A stretch of DNA of 20,191 nucleotides, taken from positions 1-20,191 of IMG/VR virus record IMGVR_UViG_3300027905_000037; one strand, written 5' to 3'. How positions within the stretch are numbered: position 1 is the stretch's first letter; every line of letters begins with the position of its first letter. The notes beneath the pieces were generated by a model. That model was not told the DNA's origin and did not search any database. It saw only the letters and a program-made list of their open reading frames with translations. The stretch comes from a virus. Below are positions 5,919-15,589 of this stretch, piece by piece. The translations under genes were made by a program, and so were the position numbers.

Positions 5919-6194
5919 ATGACGGCGCTTATCGGCGGCAAGTCCTGCCGTTCCTGCGAATTCATCCTGATCGTCGGCAAGGGCGGACTTTTTTGCCGCC
6001 GCCATCCGCCTATGGCCTTCGGCATTGCCATGCCGGGCCCGCAAGGGCCGGTGTTGACCGTTCATTCGTCCTACCCGCCCGTCAACCCTGATATGCCTTG
6101 CGGTGAGTATCAGCGCAGCGAATTGAATGCTGCGGCTGAGCTGAGCGAGGCGAAGCCGGGCAACGGTGAAATCGCAATTCGAGCGACACCATGA
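5919..6194 (+). CDS. Small Cys-rich protein, probable metal-binding, unknown function
   Basis: A 91-residue protein starting MTALIGGKSC, with GGAG at 5905-5908 upstream. An in-frame ATG at 5889 (AGGA at 5874-5877) would add ten residues; I cannot decide between them. From the later start, Cys and His are arranged as KSCRSC, then LFCRRH 12 residues later, then PDMPCGEY: a C-x2-C ... C-x2-H ... C pattern suggesting a bound Zn or Fe. The rest is Pro/Gly rich (PGPQGP, SSYPPVNP). It lies between protease and capsid, and its TGA overlaps the next ATG (6191-6194). I do not recognise a named family. A structural or assembly role is only suggested by location. Confidence 0.65.
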   Translation: MTALIGGKSCRSCEFILIVGKGGLFCRRHPPMAFGIAMPGPQGPVLTVHSSYPPVNPDMPCGEYQRSELNAAAELSEAKPGNGEIAIRATP

Positions 6195-6457
6195 TGGATC
6201 AAAGGACGGCGTTCGCGATCGCGAAGGTATACATGGAGAGCCTATTCAAGCTCTATCCCGAGGCGAAAGGTCTTCCGCGCGTCATTGAGGACGGCGGCGA
6301 GGCCGATGTGGTGCGTCTTTCGATAAAGACTGCAAAGGGCATTCTCACGATGATCTACCCGTTGGAAGAAGGAACGCGACGCACCGACGAGCTCGTCGAG
6401 TGCTACCGCACCTATCAGCCCTGCGGCGCGACGATCAAGCAGCTTCTCGCAAACTGA
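6191..6457 (+). CDS. Hypothetical 88-residue protein in the head operon
   Basis: It begins with two consecutive ATG codons (6191 and 6194); the first overlaps the preceding stop as ATGA. The sequence looks like a compact alpha/beta protein: a helical N-terminus (RTAFAIAKVYMESLFKLY), a strand-rich middle (VVRLSIKTAKGILTMIYPL), and a C-terminal helix ending KQLLAN. No motif is recognised. Codon use matches its neighbours. About 94 bp separate it from the capsid ATG, a stretch with no clear terminator. Confidence 0.6.
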   Translation: MMDQRTAFAIAKVYMESLFKLYPEAKGLPRVIEDGGEADVVRLSIKTAKGILTMIYPLEEGTRRTDELVECYRTYQPCGATIKQLLAN

Positions 6458-6551
6458 AATTCCCCGACGACATGTCGGCTGCCCTTTCGGGAGCTTGGGC
6501 AACTCGACCGCAGCGCCGGCATGGCGCCGCTTCCCTCAGATGGAGCCTTCA

Positions 6552-7964
6552 ATGGCCATTCACGAACTTCGCGCCTCGCGCGCGACCTCGCTCGACAAGT
6601 TTATGAAACTTGCCGAGAAACCCGACTTCAAGAAGGACGTCGATCAGCCAGAATTTGATCGGCTGCAGGCCGAGATCAAGGATCTCGACGGCAGGATCGA
6701 GCGCGAAAAGGCCGCGCAGGAGCTCGCCGGCGACAAGGCCACGCTGGCGCCGGGCCAAGAGAGTCACCCGCGCCTCTATGCTCAGGGGAAGGACGATCCT
6801 TGGACCGACGACGAAGCCGCGAAGCGCAGGGGCCTGTTGACTTCCAAGGGCCTCGTTTTCGGCGGCGTCGCCAAGATGATTGCTGCCGGCGGGGGCTCCT
6901 ATTTCGAGGCGCGCAATATCTCGAAGGAGCTCTACGGCGAGCAACACATCATCACGAAGGCGCTGGTCGCTGGTATTGGCTCCTCGGGCGGGTTCATTTT
7001 GCCGCCTGAATATATCAACGAGATCATCGAACTGCTCCGGCCGCTCTCCGTCGTGCGGGCTTCAAACCCGCGCACGATGCCGATGCCGCGCGGCACGATG
7101 ACTCTGCCGGCGCAGACCTCGCCCGCGACCGCGACCTACGGGCCCGAGCATACGCCGATCTCGGCTACCCAGCCGGCGCTCGGTCAGATCGTTGCGACCT
7201 ACAAAAAGCTCCGGGCTCTCGTCCCGATCAGCAACGACTTGTTGCGTTACGCCGATCCGGCGGCCGACGCATTCGTCCGCGATGACATGGTCAAGGTGAT
7301 GGCGCTGCGCGAAGATCTCGCCTTCATCATGGGCGATGGAACGCTGGAAAGCCCGCGTGGCTTCCTGAGCTTCGCAAATGCCTACGCGCAGGCATCTCTG
7401 GGCACGGCGGGCACATGGCTGGCCACCGCGAATTCGATCGCAGCGGTCGGCGCGAACTTCATTACGTCGAATGAGACTTACACGCTCTCGACCGTCGCTA
7501 CCGAAATCGGCGGCATGGTCAACAGGCTCGACACCGCCAATGTGCCGGACATGCGCCGCGTTTGGTTCATGCACCCGCGCTCATGGAACTATCTGAACAA
7601 CGTGCAAAATTCGCTCGGCGTCTATGTTTATCGCGACGAGCTGTCGAGGGGTGCGCTGCTCGGCTATCCGTTCAAAAAGTCAACGCAGATCCCGATCAAC
7701 ATCTGGGACTCGGGCACCGGCAACCATGACTGCAGCTTCGTCTTCCTCGTCGAGATGACCGACGCGTTGGTCCTTGATGCAATGACGCTGGAGCTCGCCA
7801 TCTCGCGCGAAGGCAGCTACGTCGATTCGCTCGGCGCTCAGCAGAACGCATTCGCGAACGATGAGACAATCGTCCGGGCGATCGCCGAACACGATTTCCA
7901 GATGAGGCATTCCGCCTCGATCTCGGTCGACCAGTTCGTGCGCTGGGCCCCGGCGATCTCGTAA
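6552..7964 (+). CDS. Major capsid protein, HK97 fold
   Basis: The frame is open from a TTG at 6495, but the ATG at 6552 is preceded by GGAG at 6542-6545 and gives the natural N-terminus MAIHELRASR, 470 residues. Residues about 30-60 form a charged coiled-coil (FDRLQAEIKDLDGRIEREKA), typical of the N-terminal delta-like region removed by the prohead protease. The coat core begins near ALVAGIGSSGGFILPPEY and continues with the family hallmarks SVVRASNPRTMPMPRG, KKLRALVPISNDLLRYADP, LAFIMGDGT and PRGFLS. It assembles the icosahedral shell. A strong hairpin follows 16 bp after the stop. The accessory genes that follow replace the usual direct transition to the head-tail connectors. Confidence 0.93.
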   Translation: MAIHELRASRATSLDKFMKLAEKPDFKKDVDQPEFDRLQAEIKDLDGRIEREKAAQELAGDKATLAPGQESHPRLYAQGKDDPWTDDEAAKRRGLLTSKGLVFGGVAKMIAAGGGSYFEARNISKELYGEQHIITKALVAGIGSSGGFILPPEYINEIIELLRPLSVVRASNPRTMPMPRGTMTLPAQTSPATATYGPEHTPISATQPALGQIVATYKKLRALVPISNDLLRYADPAADAFVRDDMVKVMALREDLAFIMGDGTLESPRGFLSFANAYAQASLGTAGTWLATANSIAAVGANFITSNETYTLSTVATEIGGMVNRLDTANVPDMRRVWFMHPRSWNYLNNVQNSLGVYVYRDELSRGALLGYPFKKSTQIPINIWDSGTGNHDCSFVFLVEMTDALVLDAMTLELAISREGSYVDSLGAQQNAFANDETIVRAIAEHDFQMRHSASISVDQFVRWAPAIS

Positions 7965-8048: not shown

Positions 8049-8600
8049 ATGGCTGACATCATGCTCCAAAAACACATCGGCGACTTGATTGATCTCAAGG
8101 CGCTGTCTTCCTCGCTCTCCTGGACCGCCGGTGGCGCTTCGGATAGCGTGACTTGGACCGGGATCTCGATTGATCGCGGCGGTGCTTTCGCGACCGGCGC
8201 GCTGCCGCGCACGCTCGATGCCGCGTTGCTCTTCGACGCAACGCTCGCCTCGGGCAAGTCGCTCTCGGTCTATTGGGACGTGCAGCACTCGCCCGATAAC
8301 TCGACGTGGTCGGACTACGCGACCGAAGCGTCTCAGGTGGTTGCGACGGGACAATCGGGCGGCGGCCGAGCTATTGGCGTCTCGCGCCTTACGCTGAGCT
8401 CGGCGGACGACCCGAACATTGCCTCGGCGACGAACATCCCGGGCCAGACGCCGACGCCCTCGATCAATCTCGGCTCCGCGGCGCGGTATATTCGGCTCAA
8501 TGTAGTGCCGCATCTTGCCAGCACCGGGACGGACACCGGGGTCATCGCCGCGGTCGGCGTCTTCGCCGGCTTCGATATCCTGCAGGCGCCGAGCTCGTAA
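8049..8600 (+). CDS. Putative capsid decoration/cement-like protein
   Basis: A 183-residue protein; GGGAG at 8035-8039 supports the ATG at 8049 over the upstream in-frame ATG at 7998, which lies in the hairpin loop. The sequence is beta-rich: SLSVYWDVQHSPDNSTW looks like the strand-loop-strand seen in phage proteins that read as a measured-value-plus-deviation fold, and ARYIRLNVVPHLASTG resembles the last strands. Placement right after capsid, small size and beta-rich character suggest a head decoration or cement protein, but I do not recognise a specific family. The related-looking gene at 14781 shares the short W-containing strand pattern (AYIQTSLDQGQTWFDI). It is a candidate substrate for the downstream enzymes, by proximity only. 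Confidence 0.55.
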   Translation: MADIMLQKHIGDLIDLKALSSSLSWTAGGASDSVTWTGISIDRGGAFATGALPRTLDAALLFDATLASGKSLSVYWDVQHSPDNSTWSDYATEASQVVATGQSGGGRAIGVSRLTLSSADDPNIASATNIPGQTPTPSINLGSAARYIRLNVVPHLASTGTDTGVIAAVGVFAGFDILQAPSS

Positions 8601-8605
8601 GGCGC

Positions 8606-9808
8606 GTGTCAACCGGCCTCTATGTCCACACGCCCGGCCGCTTGTCGCGGTGGGGCGTCGTGGACGTGGGCCTCAAGTGCGTCCACAAGTGCAAGTTCTG
8701 CTACTACTCGTTCCTTGACGGGTCGCCCGATCAGTTCGCCGGCATGGCGCACGCGAAGTTCCAAGCGGTTGAGCACCTGAACGCACTTGTGGATTCGCTG
8801 GCGCAGAACGGCTTTGTCGGATTTGATGTAACCGGCGGCGAGCCCGCGCTCTCGCCCTCGATTGTCCAGATCGTCAGGCGCGCCGTTGAGCATGGGTTAG
8901 CGGCTCGGATCATCACGCTCGGCCAATACTTAATGCGCGCGATGAGAAGCGCGCCCGGCCATGCTCGGCTGATCGACGGGCTGCTCGAGGCCGGCGTCGC
9001 CGACTTCTTGCTCTCGATTCACGCTGTCGAGCCGGAAGCCTTCGACGCCATCACCGGCGGCTCATGGATCGCGATGCGGAGCGCGATGGAATACCTCGAC
9101 GAAAAAGGTTTCGACTACTGCTCGAACACGACGGTCTTCGAGGACAATTTTCGCTCATTGCCCGCGATCGCGCGCGAGCTCGCCAAGCACCGCGTCTATG
9201 TTGCGAACTTTATCGTGATGAACGCCTACTATGCTTGGGGGCGCCCCGACGCGCCGACGCGGAAGGTTCAAGCGCATTACAGCGAAATCCGGCCTTATCT
9301 TCTGGAGGCTCGCGATCTGCTTGAGGAGGCGGGCATCGCGGTCAATGTCCGCTATGCGCCGCTTTGCACGATGCGAGGGATGGAGCGCAATCTCGTCGGG
9401 ATCGCTGGCGTTCGCCACGACCCCCACGAATGGATGAACGCGATCGACCACATGAGGCCTGGCCCCGGCGCCGAAATGGGCCGCCGCCTCGCGCTCCACG
9501 ATTACCAGATGCAATATAGGCTCGAACCTCCCACCTCTGCCGGCACCGTCGCGCATCGCGCCGACAAGATCTTCCCGAAGAAATGTCGATCATGCCGCGC
9601 GATCTCGATCTGCGACGGCATTGATCGCCGTTATCTGTGCGAATGTGGCACCGACGAACTTGAGCCCTATTCTCAATTCCGCGGTGATCTATTAGATCGC
9701 GAGCGGTTGGCATATCTTCCCGCCTTCGTTGTCAAGACGGCACCCTATGCCGACGCGTGCCGGGCGGTTTCGTCCATGCTGAGAGGTGATCATGTGGTTG
9801 CTTCCTAG
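8606..9808 (+). CDS. Radical SAM enzyme with C-terminal Cys-rich (SPASM-like) tail
   Basis: A 400-residue protein from a GTG at 8606, five bases after the previous stop, with AAGG at 8599-8602; the reading frame open further upstream is a shadow of the previous gene. The [4Fe-4S] motif CVHKCKFC is exactly C-x3-C-x2-C (C25, C29, C32), followed by an aromatic (Y33). The SAM-binding VTGGEPALS motif is at residues 75-83 (GGE 77-79). The C-terminus has C327, C330, C336, C345 and C347 (KKCRSCRAISICDGI, YLCECGTDEL), a likely auxiliary Fe-S or metal site. Such proteins act on peptides, sugars or nucleotides; the substrate here is unknown. The end overlaps the next gene by 17 bp, so the two are translationally coupled. 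Confidence 0.9.
   Translation: MSTGLYVHTPGRLSRWGVVDVGLKCVHKCKFCYYSFLDGSPDQFAGMAHAKFQAVEHLNALVDSLAQNGFVGFDVTGGEPALSPSIVQIVRRAVEHGLAARIITLGQYLMRAMRSAPGHARLIDGLLEAGVADFLLSIHAVEPEAFDAITGGSWIAMRSAMEYLDEKGFDYCSNTTVFEDNFRSLPAIARELAKHRVYVANFIVMNAYYAWGRPDAPTRKVQAHYSEIRPYLLEARDLLEEAGIAVNVRYAPLCTMRGMERNLVGIAGVRHDPHEWMNAIDHMRPGPGAEMGRRLALHDYQMQYRLEPPTSAGTVAHRADKIFPKKCRSCRAISICDGIDRRYLCECGTDELEPYSQFRGDLLDRERLAYLPAFVVKTAPYADACRAVSSMLRGDHVVAS
9782..9791 (+). promoter_or_regulatory. Near-consensus Shine-Dalgarno deciding the GT start
   Basis: AGAGGTGATC directly precedes the ATG at 9792 and closely matches the 16S-complementary consensus AGGAGGTGATC. It lies within the radical SAM coding sequence. It favours ATG 9792 over the in-frame GTG at 9786, which falls within the Shine-Dalgarno itself. 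Confidence 0.6.
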
Positions 9809-11267
9809 CCTAAACCGAGTGGAGAAGCTTCGCCGCTTCTTCGAAGCTTGTCATACGACCGGCGTCTCGACACCCGGGATGGTGCTCATTGACGAAGACG
9901 ACTTTGCCGCAAATCAGGACGATTATCGCCGCATAGTGTTGCCTCTCGGCTGGCATCTGTGCCGCACCATTGGGCGCACGCAAGGCGACAAGATTCGCGA
10001 AGTCTGGGAGGAGATCAAATCCTGCGCTTGGTTCGGCCTGATCGGCGATGACAATATACCGGAGACCCAATTCTGGGACCGGCGCCTCATCGATGCGCTG
10101 GATGATCAGAACCTGATCGTCTCCTGCAATGACGGCTGGCAAGCGCCGAAGCGGCTGGCAAATTGCTGGATCATGTCCGGTGATCTCGTCCGCACGGCGG
10201 GCTATATTTTCGCGCCCGGCATGCACCATCTATTCGTCGATGATATGTGGGAGACGATCGGCCTCGAGGCCTCCTGCTGGCGATGCCTGATGGACGTGGT
10301 GGTCCGGCATAATCACGTGATGATCGGCGAGATCGCCGATGAAACGCATCGGGGCGTCTACGGCGATGGCTTCGCCGCGCAGGCCGGCCCCGACCGGAAA
10401 AAAGGATTGTGGGCCGGCGACGAAAGGGCATTCCAGCAATGGCTTTCGTTTGAGCGCCACAGGATCGTGACCGAGATTAAGCGCAAGCGGCCGGCGCCCG
10501 TCGATGATCCGGAGGCGGCGGTGAAGGCAACGCGCCTCGCGCGCGCCAAGTCTCGCTCGCTGATGATCGCGACGCCAGTGGCGCGTCACCCGTGCTACCA
10601 ATACACGGTTTCGCTCATCGATACCGTTCTGATGCTCGATCGGCTCGGCATCAAGCATTGCTTGCAGATGATCGTCGGTTCTTCGAATTTGCCGCGCGCC
10701 CGCAACGAGCTCTGCGCTCGGTTTCTCGCGTCGCCATGCACCGACCTGATCTTCATCGACGACGACATGGAATGGCGAGCAAACGACGTCGCAAGACTTC
10801 TTGCATCGAACCAACCGATTGCTGGCGGCGTTGGTCGCAAGCGCGTTGATAAGCCGAACACCGACACCGACGTTTGGTGCGGCGAGCCCTATCTCGGGCC
10901 GGACAATGACGTCGTTCAGGACGAGATGGGTTTCGTTCGCTTCCGCAAGGTCGGCACCGGGTTTCTGAAAATCGCGCGCGAGGCCTTCGAGCAAATCATC
11001 GCGGCGCACCCGGAATGGAAGGGCGCCGGCCACAACGACATGCCACAGCAGGCGCGTGACAATTACTACCGCTTCTTCCGCTTCGCCGAGGATGAGCGCG
11101 AGACGGGCGAGGACTTCGCTTTCTGCGCTGCTTGGCATGATTGCGGCGGCGAAATTTGGATTGATCCCGCCACGTACCTCGGCCACGTCGGCGAGCGGGT
11201 TTATAGGGGCTCGATCAGCGAACTAATGACGCCGCGCAACGCGGCACCCAAAGAGGCGGCGGCATAA
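9792..11267 (+). CDS. Tandem GT-A glycosyltransferase-like protein
   Basis: A 491-residue protein that seems to contain two nucleotide-sugar transferase-like units. The N-terminal unit (about 1-225) opens with strand-turn MWLLPSLNR, has VLIDEDDF (31-38), GLIGDDNIP (82-90, a DxD-type metal site), and VDDMWETIG (149-157). The C-terminal unit (about 255-480) has SLMIATPVARHP, SSNLPRARNELCARFL, the strand LIFIDDDMEW with DDD at 323-325, then GEDFAFCAAW (439-448) and GGEIWIDP with LGHVGERVYRG, a pattern I recognise from family-2-like transferases. It may transfer sugar to a protein or surface glycan. Substrate and activity are not shown. It overlaps the radical SAM gene by 17 bp, implying joint expression. 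Confidence 0.8.
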   Translation: MWLLPSLNRVEKLRRFFEACHTTGVSTPGMVLIDEDDFAANQDDYRRIVLPLGWHLCRTIGRTQGDKIREVWEEIKSCAWFGLIGDDNIPETQFWDRRLIDALDDQNLIVSCNDGWQAPKRLANCWIMSGDLVRTAGYIFAPGMHHLFVDDMWETIGLEASCWRCLMDVVVRHNHVMIGEIADETHRGVYGDGFAAQAGPDRKKGLWAGDERAFQQWLSFERHRIVTEIKRKRPAPVDDPEAAVKATRLARAKSRSLMIATPVARHPCYQYTVSLIDTVLMLDRLGIKHCLQMIVGSSNLPRARNELCARFLASPCTDLIFIDDDMEWRANDVARLLASNQPIAGGVGRKRVDKPNTDTDVWCGEPYLGPDNDVVQDEMGFVRFRKVGTGFLKIAREAFEQIIAAHPEWKGAGHNDMPQQARDNYYRFFRFAEDERETGEDFAFCAAWHDCGGEIWIDPATYLGHVGERVYRGSISELMTPRNAAPKEAAA

Positions 11268-11415: not shown

Positions 11416-11445
11416 TTGACAAAGTGGCCGCTAGGGATTGATATT
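11416..11445 (+). promoter_or_regulatory. Candidate sigma70-type promoter spanning the left junction of the insert
   Basis: A perfect -35 TTGACA lies at 11416-11421. After 18 bp comes GATATT (11440-11445), four of six matches to the -10; TGATAT with a 17-bp spacer is an alternative. The -35 belongs to the interrupted gene and the -10 to the inserted DNA. The ATG of the membrane protein at 11484 is about 38 bp further on. Confidence 0.4.
11425..11431 (+). repeat. 7-bp direct repeat TGGCCGC, left copy at insertion boundary
   Basis: An identical TGGCCGC occurs at 12322-12328, 897 bp away. Both copies are read in the same phase (TGG CCG C..), so removing the interval restores a continuous ORF. 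This could be a target duplication or a microhomology junction. Confidence 0.55.
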
Positions 11446-11483
11446 TCCCAGGAGCCGCGCGGACTTTCGTCGAGAGCGCTGAA

Positions 11484-12272
11484 ATGCTGGATCAGATCGG
11501 CACATTTCTGCGCCTCGTATGGGCCGAATGGTCCAGTCGCGTGACGGGTTCGCTCAGCGCCTTTCTTGTATTGGCTGGTCTCTGCATCAGCATCGCGGGA
11601 ACTTTTGGGGCTAAGATACCAAGTGAATCGATTTTACAACTTGTGACGTGGGCGCTGGCGGCACTCTTCGGCGCCCAAGCTGCATTCTCTATTTGGGCAC
11701 GGGAGCATCAGGCCAGAATAGAAGTAGAGCGCAAACTTGCAGAAAAAACGACACCGAACTTTACCGTATCATTCGACCAAGAGCGCGGCGGTATCGTGAA
11801 CGCAGTAGATCAAACAAAAATCGAGATGCCAGGAACATATGGGGGAACCATTTTCAGGCCCGGTCCATCATACAATGCGTCGTGCCTGCGTATTCTTATA
11901 AAAACGAAGTCCGATGTACCGGTTAAGAGATGCCAGGCTTTTATTTTGTCTCTGGAAAAACAAGCGCAGCCTGACGAGGCATTTATCTACGTTGAGCTTC
12001 CGCAGCGTATCCCATTGCAGACGGGACCGTTCGAAGTATTACCAAACATTCCTTACCCCGTTGATTTCATGAAGGCCAGCGACCAGAACAATAAGCTTGT
12101 GAGAACCGGAGAATGGCCGAATGTTTTGGCGCGAGCATTCGACGATCTAGCCACATATCGTTTCACTATCGCTGTGAATGGTGATGGCATCACTGCCAAG
12201 CCGATCAAGGTGGACGTAGTGTGGCGTGGACAATGGGACACAATCTCCGCCAGCCAGGTTCACGAAACTTGA
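11484..12272 (+). CDS. Two-TM membrane protein of unknown function, cargo of the insert
   Basis: A 262-residue protein. Two predicted membrane helices are visible: about 22-42 (GSLSAFLVLAGLCISIAGT) and 50-71 (ILQLVTWALAALFGAQAAFS). A short charged helix follows (REHQARIEVERKLAEK), then a soluble, strand-rich domain from about 92 to the end. The N-terminus has Trp and acidic residues (RLVWAEWSS). I recognise no named family. The base composition is lower in GC than in all neighbours, which points to separate acquisition. Only a weak Shine-Dalgarno (GAGAG, 11472-11476) precedes the ATG. Membrane-bound phage cargo proteins of this kind can act in superinfection exclusion or host modification, but nothing in the sequence proves this. 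Confidence 0.75.
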   Translation: MLDQIGTFLRLVWAEWSSRVTGSLSAFLVLAGLCISIAGTFGAKIPSESILQLVTWALAALFGAQAAFSIWAREHQARIEVERKLAEKTTPNFTVSFDQERGGIVNAVDQTKIEMPGTYGGTIFRPGPSYNASCLRILIKTKSDVPVKRCQAFILSLEKQAQPDEAFIYVELPQRIPLQTGPFEVLPNIPYPVDFMKASDQNNKLVRTGEWPNVLARAFDDLATYRFTIAVNGDGITAKPIKVDVVWRGQWDTISASQVHET

Positions 12273-12635: not shown

Positions 12636-12859
12636 CCAAACTTGTGCGATTCACGAAACCGATGCGGCCCTTTGGCATCGGAGATCAACGGCTCGTGCCC
12701 GACGATGTTGCGGCGCGACTTGCGGCGGAGGGCGTGATCGAGCCGAACCCGCCGGACTTCCCCGCGAATCCACCGCGTCAGGTGGGCGCCCCAGAGCCGG
12801 CGCGCAAGCCGCACCGCCGGTTCGTCCCTGCGCTCGGCCAAACCTATTTGACGAAATGA
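12632..12859 (+). CDS. Small connector-region protein
   Basis: Starts at a GTG at 12632 with AGGA at 12620-12623 and gives 75 residues; the frame open upstream to 12290 crosses the interrupted gene and the start-less ORF and is not believable. MTKLVRFTKPMRPFGIGDQ is followed by VPDDVAARLAAEGVIEPNPPD and a basic Pro-rich tail ending LGQTYLTK. It matches the general pattern of a small phage protein with an FxKPMRPYxxGD-like start and a degradation-like VxxAxKLxAEG helix that I have seen in head-tail regions, but I cannot name a family. Its TGA overlaps a following ATG (12856-12859). Confidence 0.65.
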   Translation: MTKLVRFTKPMRPFGIGDQRLVPDDVAARLAAEGVIEPNPPDFPANPPRQVGAPEPARKPHRRFVPALGQTYLTK

Positions 12860-12867
12860 GGCTCCCG

Positions 12868-13560
12868 ATGGACCGGATTAGAAATTGCTTCCTTGCGGCG
12901 GCAATGTTCGCGTTTTTGGTGGCCGGCGCGGCGGTCGCACAGCAATACAATCTGCAAGGCGGCGCGCAGGGCCAGTCGGTCGGTTCATCCGTCATCGATG
13001 ATCTCAATATCGCGGGCAATGCGCAGCCGGTCAGCGCCACGAACCCGCTGCCGACGGCACCGCAACAATCGGCCGCGATAACGAATCCAAGTTCGACCTT
13101 GACGCTGCCGGCGGCGACGACCGCCTACACCTCGGGCGAGCTGATCGCCAACAGCGCGACGGCCGGCTCGGTTGTCGTGCCCTCGTTCGCAATCGCGAAC
13201 GTTGGCGGCGGTGCAATAATTCAAAAGGTCCGCCTGAACACAAACGACGCGACCTCGACCGCTTGGCCAGGCAAAGTAATTCAGGTGGACCTTTGGTCCG
13301 CGCCCCCGAGCTTCACTAACGGCGATCGCGGAGCCTTCCTGCCTGCGAGCGGGACCGCCGGCCATCTCGGCGCATTTACTTGCACGATGAGCGCGGAGTA
13401 TGGCGACGGCGCCTATGCCGATTGCGCGCCGACCATTGGCAGCGCCTTGGTTATCCGACTGCCTTCCGGTACCGGGATCTTCTGGACGCTGCAAACCACC
13501 GGCTCCGGCGTCACCGGCGCGAGCAACGTCTTCAGGCTCACGGCGGAAGTGCAGAACTAG
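12868..13560 (+). CDS. Beta-rich phage structural-type protein with a Sec signal peptide
   Basis: A 230-residue product. The ATG at 12868 has GAGG at 12858-12861; an in-frame ATG at 12856 would add four residues. The N-terminus is a textbook signal peptide: basic MDRIRN, hydrophobic FLAAAMFAFLVAGAAVAQQ with an AVA-QQ cleavage-type site at about residue 25. The mature part is Ser/Thr/Ala rich and strand-like, including TAYTSGELIANSATAGSVVV and STAWPGKVIQVDLWSAPPSF, a pattern I recognise from phage structural or fibre-like proteins. Only two Cys occur in its second half. An exported structural-type protein in the head-tail module is unusual. It may act outside the cytoplasm or be a virion protein processed differently. 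Confidence 0.75.
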   Translation: MDRIRNCFLAAAMFAFLVAGAAVAQQYNLQGGAQGQSVGSSVIDDLNIAGNAQPVSATNPLPTAPQQSAAITNPSSTLTLPAATTAYTSGELIANSATAGSVVVPSFAIANVGGGAIIQKVRLNTNDATSTAWPGKVIQVDLWSAPPSFTNGDRGAFLPASGTAGHLGAFTCTMSAEYGDGAYADCAPTIGSALVIRLPSGTGIFWTLQTTGSGVTGASNVFRLTAEVQN

Positions 13561-13587: not shown

Positions 13588-14625
13588 ATGGCGCCGACAA
13601 TCATCACCCGCCTCAAGCTGCCGGCTGTCCCTTCGTTTCAGGGCGCGCAGCAATATGACCTCGTCGCTCTCGATGACGTAAAGCTCGAACTCAAAATCGA
13701 GACGAGCAAGGACGATGCTTGGCTGAAAAAGGTTATCACTCGGGAATCGGCTGCGGTCGCCCATTTCTGCAACCGGCATTTTCAAGTCCAGACCTATGAG
13801 GACGAATGCTGGGCGTTCCGGGACCCCTATCCCTATCAGCTCCCGTCCGGATTTATGCCCCTACAGTTGCGGCGCCGGCCGCTGGTGGCCCTTCCATCGG
13901 AGGCACATACTGCACCGCCCGGGCCCTTTCCGGTCCTCTCACAGGCCCCGGGAGGCGCCCTGCCGGCGACCCGCTATTACGTCAAGATGAGCTATGTGAC
14001 TGAGGGCGGCGAAACGGCGGCAGGGGCCGAGGCGAACCTGCTGGTGAGCGCCGGCAACCTTCTGAGCGTCGCTTCGCCTCCGATGGACAATCGGGCGGCG
14101 GCTATTGGCTGGAATTGCTACGTCGGGACGACGAGCTTCGGCGAGAGCCTGCAGAATGACGAGCCGTTAGCGATCGACGCAAGTTTCATGTTGGCGACAT
14201 CGGGACTCGTTTCTGGCGCGCCGGGATTGCCACCTTACACGCTCGTCGTCGAGCGGGGCATCGCGCCGGGCCAAGTCATCCCTCGCGCGCTCGCCGAGGG
14301 CTGGGACTTCGAGGCTGATCGGGAAACTGCGCAACTCACGCGGCTGCTCCCCGATCATTATCCGGGCAGATGGCCGGGCGTCCCGATCACCGTCGCCTAT
14401 CTCGCCGGCTTTGCCGAGATCCCAGCCGACGTGCAGGACGCGACGATAATGCTGCTCAAAGAGCGCTGGTTCGCTCGCCACCGCGATCCGAATATCCGTT
14501 CGGAAGAAGCAGCCGGCGTTTATTCGGCACAGTATTGGTTCGGCACGGGGCCCGGGGGACCGGCCGATTTGCCCGCCTTCGTCGCGGAGAGGCTGTCGCG
14601 CTATCGCGCCCCGGTGATCGCGTAA
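13588..14625 (+). CDS. gp6-like head-tail connector with an inserted Ig-like domain
   Basis: A 345-residue protein. The N-terminal part (LVALDDVKLELKIETSKDD, then ITRESAAVAHFCNRHFQ, about 25-66) and the C-terminal part (VPITVAYLAGFAEIPADVQ and MLLKERWFARHRD, about 265-300) are the two halves of an HK97 gp6-like connector that forms a ring under the portal. Residues about 105-215 look like an Ig/fibronectin-type domain between them: ATRYYVKMSYVTEGGETAA, NLLSVASPP, then GWNCYVGTTSFGE. Ordinary connectors of this family are about 100-200 residues, which fits an insertion. The start at 13588 has GAGG 9 bp upstream. The gene is followed by a strong Shine-Dalgarno for the next ORF. Confidence 0.82.
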   Translation: MAPTIITRLKLPAVPSFQGAQQYDLVALDDVKLELKIETSKDDAWLKKVITRESAAVAHFCNRHFQVQTYEDECWAFRDPYPYQLPSGFMPLQLRRRPLVALPSEAHTAPPGPFPVLSQAPGGALPATRYYVKMSYVTEGGETAAGAEANLLVSAGNLLSVASPPMDNRAAAIGWNCYVGTTSFGESLQNDEPLAIDASFMLATSGLVSGAPGLPPYTLVVERGIAPGQVIPRALAEGWDFEADRETAQLTRLLPDHYPGRWPGVPITVAYLAGFAEIPADVQDATIMLLKERWFARHRDPNIRSEEAAGVYSAQYWFGTGPGGPADLPAFVAERLSRYRAPVIA

Positions 14626-14636
14626 GGAGACCGACC

Positions 14637-14774
14637 ATGCACGTCAGGATCGCAGCGGTCAGGGGCATCCCGTGTTTCTTCGGAATCTCGCTATGCGGGA
14701 CTTCAATCGCTTGGTGGGCGCCGCGCCGAGGGGATTGGATCATCTGGTCGATCGGCAAGCCTTATTTCTGGTGA
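14637..14774 (+). CDS. 45-residue Trp-rich hydrophobic small protein
   Basis: The ATG at 14637 is preceded by AAGGAGA (14624-14630), one of the best ribosome-binding sites in the window, which starts at the stop of the connector gene. The product has five Trp residues and a hydrophobic run, CFFGISLCGTSIAWWAP, then RRGDWIIWSIGKPYFW. I recognise no family. The strong ribosome site and clean spacing to the next gene (6 bp after its TGA) make it a real gene candidate despite the short length. A weakly membrane-associated role is possible. Confidence 0.55.
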   Translation: MHVRIAAVRGIPCFFGISLCGTSIAWWAPRRGDWIIWSIGKPYFW

Positions 14775-14780
14775 GGGGCA

Positions 14781-15203
14781 ATGGATAACCCGGGCGCGCT
14801 CCAACTCACACAGAACGGCAGCGCTTTCCCGATCGTCGGCCCGGGCACGTTCATCGGCGACGCGATCGAAGGCCTCGAGGGAATGAAATCCCTCTCGTTG
14901 CAGGCGCAGTTCCTTTATGGCTCAGGCGGCGCGAGCGTCCTCGCCTATATCCAAACTTCGCTCGATCAGGGGCAGACTTGGTTCGACATTGCCGCGCTGC
15001 AATTCGAAACCTCGAGCGGGACTCAGATCATCAATCTTTCGGCCGACGACGCTAACACGACGCCTTTCACGCCGTCTCAGCAGTCACTTCCGGCGGGCAC
15101 TTGCATCAACGGTGTGCTCGGCGATCGGCTCCGCGCCGTCGTGGTCGTTACCGGCACGTATGGTGCGAGCTCGTTGCTCAACCTTGCGGGTTGCGCCCGG
15201 TGA
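14781..15203 (+). CDS. Beta-rich structural protein of the neck region
   Basis: A 140-residue protein with GAGGGG (14772-14777) close upstream of the ATG at 14781. Strand-like stretches SLSLQAQFLYGSGGASV and AYIQTSLDQGQTWFDIAAL precede a middle with INLSADDANTT and a final strand region LRAVVVVTGTYG. The pattern (measured values over strands with QTWFDI) is typical of small phage virion proteins near the head-tail joint, which fits its place between connector and head closure. I cannot name the family. Its TGA overlaps the next GTG start (15200-15203). Confidence 0.65.
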   Translation: MDNPGALQLTQNGSAFPIVGPGTFIGDAIEGLEGMKSLSLQAQFLYGSGGASVLAYIQTSLDQGQTWFDIAALQFETSSGTQIINLSADDANTTPFTPSQQSLPAGTCINGVLGDRLRAVVVVTGTYGASSLLNLAGCAR

Positions 15204-15589
15204 TAAACCCGGCCGCCGAATCCGTCACCCGGCGCGGCATCGCCGCGAAGGGCATCGAGGTGGTTTTCTCGCGCCTCTCCGGCATGGCGCCAAACGTGGT
15301 GAGCTTTTCCGCGCAAGTAAAAGCGATCGTGCAGAATTACGTGCCCGATTCCATAGTCACTAGAGAGACGGGCTACAGTGCGAGTCAGATCGGCGCGATC
15401 ACGCAGGGCGATAGGCAAGTCATCGTGATGGCGAAGGATCTGCGCGATCGGCGCTTTCCTCTTCCGCCGCAGAAGCATGATAAGATTCTCATTCTCGAGA
15501 CTGGCGAGCTGCTTGACGTCACGCGCGTCGATGTCGGCAAGCGTGCTCTTGCCGGCGCGATCGAGCTATTTGGAACCGGCGTAGCATGA
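15200..15589 (+). CDS. Head closure / head-tail joining protein
   Basis: The GTG at 15200 overlaps the previous TGA (GTGA) and gives 129 residues. Signature stretches are SVTRRGIAAKGIEVVFSRL near the start, then IVQNYVPDSIV, GAITQGDRQVIVMA near the middle, and LLDVTRVDVGKRALAGAIELFG at the end. This matches the general plan of small phage head-completion/neck proteins, and it sits exactly in that place. It would seal the connector ring and bind the tail. The TGA overlaps the next ATG (15586-15589). Confidence 0.7.
   Translation: MINPAAESVTRRGIAAKGIEVVFSRLSGMAPNVVSFSAQVKAIVQNYVPDSIVTRETGYSASQIGAITQGDRQVIVMAKDLRDRRFPLPPQKHDKILILETGELLDVTRVDVGKRALAGAIELFGTGVA

Follow-up and report, generated by a model that had tools for sequence, protein, structure and literature searches.

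The radical SAM protein (rSAM) and the tandem glycosyltransferase (GT) encoded beside the capsid gene of this phage probably form that half of a virion glycosylation cassette which handles the sugar chemistry, a reading to which we give a probability of about 0.6. In such a cassette, the C-terminal unit of the GT (unit 2) would act on a cement-like head protein, the N-terminal unit (unit 1) would extend the glycan, and the rSAM would edit it. As judged from sequence comparison, the GT is a chimera: its N-terminal unit is tied to the rSAM, its C-terminal unit to the cement-like protein. Phage virion glycosylation as such is known; the rSAM-bearing variant with a coupled GT appears to be new, and its coupling is well supported.

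The window, that is, the whole stretch of DNA that was analysed, is the 20,191-bp IMG/VR virus record IMGVR_UViG_3300027905_000037, which carries in order the genes for TerL, portal, protease, HK97-type capsid, a 183-aa protein (8049-8600), rSAM, GT, connector and tail proteins. The rSAM and GT genes (Table 1) are flanked by the capsid genes and the connector genes, and overlap by the 17 bp originally predicted, at positions 9792-9808. Residue numbers of the rSAM count the start Met; those of P0001 are 1 lower (253, 326/329/335).

Table 1. Window positions of the capsid, cement-like, rSAM and GT genes and of the motifs within them
Feature	Position	Strand	Basis
Major capsid protein, HK97 type	6495..7964	+	Pfam Phage_capsid 6.4e-36; exact start uncertain
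Possible jelly-roll cement/decoration-like protein, 183 aa, best acceptor candidate	8049..8600	+	Position after capsid gene; weak BPP-1 cement match
Radical SAM protein (rSAM), 400 aa, GTG start	8606..9808	+	Pfam Radical_SAM 2.3e-13
CxxxCxxC (C25, C29, C32), SAM-binding 4Fe-4S cluster motif	8678..8701	+	Invariant, 15 homologues
rSAM GGE motif	8834..8842	+	Invariant
rSAM C254 (P0001 C253)	9365..9367	+	Invariant, 15 homologues; putative role
C327-x2-C330-x5-C336, SPASM/twitch-like auxiliary cluster motif	9584..9613	+	Invariant, 15 homologues
Tandem GT-A glycosyltransferase, 491 aa, ATG start	9792..11267	+	AF2 model pLDDT 87; Foldseek matches
GT unit 1 (residues 1-225); GDDN 10044-10055, VDD 10236-10244	9792..10466	+	phrog_14945 glycosyltransferase 3.5e-21
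GT unit 2 (residues 248-482); IDDD 10755-10766, GED 11106-11114	10533..11237	+	phrog_1574; Pfam Anp1 in 6/12 homologues

By its CxxxCxxC and GGE motifs, the window rSAM is a member of the radical SAM superfamily, and it scores 51 bits against the Pfam Radical_SAM cut-off of 29.5. The C25-x3-C29-x2-C32 and GGE motifs on which the original prediction was built are intact. Its C-terminal Cys cluster stood in part: C327, C330 and C336 are invariant in 15 homologues, while the final C345/C347 ('CEC') are not conserved. C254 is likewise invariant across these 15 homologues, bacterial ones among them. The rSAM has the CxxCx5C motif and one further invariant Cys, and no match to the SPASM Pfam model was found in it; most known SPASM/twitch-type domains belong to enzymes that modify peptides. 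The conserved C254 could be a fourth ligand of the auxiliary cluster or a hydrogen-atom donor, the latter being the role that a Cys plays in NeoN (PMC10991966).

The closest solved rSAM by sequence is a sugar enzyme, the cytosylglucuronate decarboxylase BlsE, with a match confined to the common rSAM core. BlsE, NeoN, HygY and BtrN are precedents for radical SAM enzymes acting on sugars, and the phage rSAM shares their core. The peptide maturase model HxsC4 gave the top NCBIfam score, full-length at 43.6 bits where the cut-off is 500 bits; with a score so far under the cut-off, and no precursor peptide recognised, the rSAM was not classed as an HxsC or other peptide maturase. A plasmid search with the rSAM gave a generic mycofactocin match only, and among named phages it matches Campylobacter phages only, at ~25% identity and away from the head genes.

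The 491-residue GT has the GDDN (85-88) and IDDD (322-325) motifs noticed at the outset, and 12 homologues show no variation at D86-D87 and D150-D151 of unit 1 or at D323xD325 and E440-D441 of unit 2. The window GT by itself has no Pfam match, and a PDB sequence search with it gave none either; in PHROGs it is split, with an N half that is glycosyltransferase-like and a C half that has no name. Its AlphaFold2 model (pLDDT 87) was matched along its length by Foldseek to two-domain GT-A enzymes, namely LH3, heparosan synthase 2, K4CP and mimivirus R699. Agreement is by domain only, with an overall TM of about 0.3, which is low because the domain orientations differ. A nucleotide-sugar fold is thus predicted for each unit, as the original prediction of two GT-A-like units demands, and by predicted fold and acidic motifs in each unit the protein is a two-unit GT-A glycosyltransferase. 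It resembles heparosan synthase 2 of Pasteurella, the E. coli K4 chondroitin polymerase and mimivirus R699 in having two GT-A domains per chain, by fold. No sequence relation to those tandem polymerases was detected in the PDB, and the phage units evolve apart, with unit 2 alone in many phages. Among named phages, unit 1 has its matches in GTs of Streptomyces phages, whose genes are not near those of the head; in phages EGole and Moab (L034 and L035) a unit-1-type GT adjoins another GT and a nucleotidyltransferase outside the head genes, possibly as a separate glycan cassette.

The protein encoded at 8049-8600 is predicted to be mostly beta strand, in a model with a pLDDT of only 66. Two weak independent signals link it to the cement protein of phage BPP-1, a profile match (E 0.081) and a fold match (3j4u_H, E 6e-3), so its assignment as a cement protein is a weak one. 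The place of its gene fits a cement role, since in 34 lineages the cement-like gene comes immediately after that of the capsid. According to the available part of PMC3863775, the BPP-1 cement protein Bbp16 is a jelly-roll on the head exterior, and glycosylation is not mentioned in that part; our match to it is near the detection limit. The original prediction had listed the 8049 protein among several possible acceptors, and it is now the best candidate, being next to the capsid gene in 34 lineages and covarying with unit 2.

The rSAM and GT were expected to recur together beside capsid genes, and this could be followed in IMG/VR, where their homologues are not limited to occurring apart. Scans for the rSAM gave 11 further contigs (7 bacterial contigs were also matched). 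All 10 contigs that continue past the rSAM gene carry the GT on the same contig, downstream at 0-1.4 kb; the 11th ends inside the rSAM gene. Together with the window, the contigs with the pair collapse to 8 distinct lineages. In 4 contigs (2 lineages) the cement and GT genes have an FkbM methyltransferase gene between them, and in 2 a Methyltransf_24 gene. In L004, an unrelated 90-kb phage, the pair is found between the tail tube and tape measure genes, with neither a cement nor a capsid homologue present, which means that the cement-like protein cannot always be the acceptor.

A scan with unit 2 gave 138 relatives; 80 loci were retained from it and reduced to 43 distinct close lineages. Unit 2 stands alone in 27 of these lineages, behind another class of unit 1 in 8, and behind the rSAM-class unit 1 in the remaining 8. 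The cement gene is upstream of unit 2 in 34 of the 43, with a gap of <=120 bp in 19 of the 34, and what fills the larger gaps is the rSAM, methyltransferases, or an SDR of the GDP-mannose-dehydratase-like kind along with a methyltransferase. Since the families found in this slot are GDP_Man_Dehyd-like SDR, Methyltransf_11/23/24 and FkbM, the rSAM sits where sugar-type enzymes are placed. Enzymes for making a sugar donor of the phage's own (SDR epimerase, NTP_transferase) were absent from the nine contigs searched, and one member of the wider set, L076, has an SDR in the slot. The 43-lineage survey makes the pair not a novelty standing by itself but the rSAM-bearing variant of a wider module of capsid, predicted jelly-roll cement-like protein and GT-A unit 2, which is apparently undescribed. 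In a P22-like phage (L036, MW202691.1), close downstream of the coat gene, a unit-2-type GT is fused to a class I methyltransferase-like domain (5947-7224).

The two GT units are not equivalent, since the GT is chimeric: unit 1 is inherited with the rSAM, and unit 2 covaries with the cement-like protein. The unit 1 sequences of all eight rSAM-positive lineages form one clade, supported at 100/99.9 among 12 sequences and at 71/87 among 23 sequences, with no shuffle as low; the unit-1 class was first defined from rSAM-positive members, and the tree was not. The other 35 unit-2 lineages gave no rSAM, with whole contigs searched for six non-rSAM phages. A comparison of L010, which has the rSAM, with L020, which has none, bears on this inheritance. 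Their capsids are sisters and 76% identical, their cement-like proteins are 75% identical and their flanking genes are common, and the DNA similarity ends right after the cement gene and restarts inside unit 2. This break marks the rSAM and unit 1 as an exchanged block. Within the GT, L020 changes its affinity at the linker, at about residue 230-250. Trees of unit 1 reject L010 and L020 as sisters (AU p 0.0005), whereas for unit 2 the best tree has them as sisters, meaning that the rSAM travels with unit 1. In the unit-2 tree alone, a single rSAM-positive clade was not rejected (AU p 0.19). The co-variation of the rSAM with the whole GT is modest because the GT is chimeric.

Unit 2, for its part, follows the cement-like protein. 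In partial Mantel tests on 32 phages, unit 2 correlates with cement given capsid (r 0.53, p 0.0002), as against r 0.05 (p 0.29) with capsid given cement. Among the 8 rSAM phages, the unit 2-cement correlation is 0.69 and the unit 1-cement correlation is -0.08, the opposite of what linkage alone predicts, as in these phages unit 1 lies closer to the cement gene than unit 2 does. Where the cement-like protein is missing, in L004, unit 2 has diverged (31-46%), whereas the rSAM (53-66%) and unit 1 (56-63%) have not. We read the covariation and the L004 divergence as unit 2 choosing the acceptor, with unit 1 and the rSAM handling the sugar; common descent and gene linkage may account for part of the covariation.

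The following course of events would be compatible with these data. Once the capsid genes are on, unit 2 would put a sugar from a host nucleotide-sugar donor on the cement-like protein, which would be exposed on the head, and unit 1 would add a second sugar. The rSAM, by means of a 5'-deoxyadenosyl radical and with one auxiliary Fe-S cluster, would abstract a hydrogen atom from the unit-1 sugar, either in the nucleotide sugar or in the glycan, leading to oxidation, epimerisation or another rearrangement. A point against this course is that an rSAM needs, in vivo, both low oxygen and reductants from the host. The edited sugar would then be capped by a methyltransferase in some relatives, and the product would be an unusual surface glycan that may alter the recognition or the stability of the particle. 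We see about even odds for the combined proposition that the rSAM edits a C-H bond of a virion-displayed sugar, that it forms an exchangeable block with half of a chimeric GT, and that both belong to a common, undescribed module in which the GT co-evolves with the cement-like protein and the slot takes varied sugar-editing genes.

The rSAM might instead modify the cement-like protein itself, by epimerising, oxidising or crosslinking a residue that the GT then glycosylates. We regard this as rather unlikely, although the CxxCx5C auxiliary motif resembles that of peptide-modifying SPASM proteins and HxsC4 remains the best NCBIfam model over the full length, if far under its cut-off; L020 retains its 75% identical cement-like protein and unit 2 with no rSAM at all, the rSAM follows unit 1 rather than the cement protein, and the bacterial relatives lie in glycan loci and have no recognised precursor peptide. 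Those relatives bring up a different target, because the bacterial kin of both enzymes are found in surface-glycan or flagellar loci and, in the available part of PMC7029224, phage GTs that change the O-antigen are known. The cassette could on these grounds alter the host surface (LPS or flagellin), and so block superinfection or receptor binding after release. This, too, is unlikely: the genes lie within the head operon, where their place is kept in 34 lineages, unit 2 covaries with the cement-like protein, and neither protein has a membrane segment, the highest 19-residue hydropathy being 1.07 and 1.34 for the two. The absence of a membrane segment from the rSAM and GT, together with the lack of a recognised flippase gene in the gene maps, also led us to set aside a serotype-converting gtr cluster.

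Hypermodification of phage DNA, in which the rSAM would edit a glycosylated base, has a basis in the virus GTs known to decorate DNA with diverse glycans (Pyle et al. 2024, as far as cited in the available part of PMC12619734), but the gene order is tied to the cement gene and not to DNA metabolism, and we consider it improbable. Nine contigs of 28-90 kb, which are possibly fragments, yielded no Tet/JBP (for which the control was silent too) and no thymidylate synthase, and a cytosine-5 methylase was seen in just one of the nine, the rSAM-negative L023, and in none of the rSAM-positive contigs. Membership in the DNA glycan hypermodification systems was not adopted, as base-priming enzymes were not found beside the GT in these nine possibly incomplete contigs. 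It is very doubtful, too, that the GT is a bifunctional polymerase whose repeating polysaccharide coats the virion or is released. Its best structural matches, heparosan synthase 2 and K4CP, are indeed two-domain polymerases, but they match by domain only, and the 27 of 43 lineages with unit 2 alone indicate that unit 2 works without unit 1, which counts against a polymerase. Glycosylation of the virion, with the sugar edited by the rSAM, is the best-supported reading.

The cellular relatives of both enzymes point to glycan or protein-glycosylation machinery. The closest bacterial rSAMs, about 41-46% identical, come from Desulfovibrionales and Nitrospira contigs, and their neighbours are GT2, a PseF-like cytidylyltransferase, a PF01973 protein weakly similar to PseD, FkbM and other rSAMs. 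In Desulfovibrionales these are glycan or Maf-type flagellin modification loci; they are cellular rather than phage-borne, and no tandem GT of the phage type was seen there. Flagellin genes occur in the same genomes, not adjacent. Bacterial rSAM relatives at L028 (10031-11794) and L031 (5004-6785) have a C-terminal extension of ~200 residues. Single-domain relatives of unit 2 are found between fliJ and motB in the flagellar operons of Acetobacteraceae (Acetobacter and Aristophania); the genes in this interval at L069 (5629-6402) and L070 (5971-6786), annotated as hypothetical, are candidate flagellar glycosyltransferases.

Among known systems, the nearest in kind are the mycobacteriophages Che8 and Rita, in which capsid or tail-tube proteins are glycosylated (Freeman et al. 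2023, cited in the accessible portions of PMC11256854 and PMC12619734) and which, like the present phage, encode GTs. In those portions, no rSAM is described for the mycobacteriophages, as opposed to the rSAM, the cement-like protein and the two-unit GT-A seen here, and the Che8 relative Maravista has its GT genes near the genome 3' end rather than beside the capsid gene. According to the available part of PMC7029224, the host-recognition regions of pelagimyophages include genes for radical SAM enzymes and GTs. A literature search, covering few subscription journals, gave no paper in which phage capsid glycosylation is connected with a radical SAM enzyme and none on the rSAM/GT pairing, in keeping with the original prediction that such a pairing in this position had not been described.

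If the proposal is true, radical chemistry would join the tools by which viruses dress their particles, and virion glycosylation would be a modular trait of many soil and water phages beyond the mycobacteriophages. The specific acceptor (8049-8600), the division of labour and the natural pairs with and without the rSAM (of the L010 and L020 types) make it testable by mass spectrometry. Since phage surface glycans bear on immune recognition, the chemistry of their sugars may be relevant to the use of phages as well.

The gene maps held several further observations. In the head-tail operon of the window and of several relatives, proteins with a Sec-type signal peptide (for example ...FLVAGAAVAQQ) are encoded in the interval from GT to connector genes or shortly past it, at 12856-13560 in the window, 12423-12983 in L002, 6508-7895 in L006, and 11445-11861 and 13434-13907 in L010. 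The TerL/portal interval of L002 has an HNH-like endonuclease gene (1476-2279), and the portal/protease interval of the related phage L026 encodes a J-domain-like protein (14610-15257, PYEILGVSRDA...).
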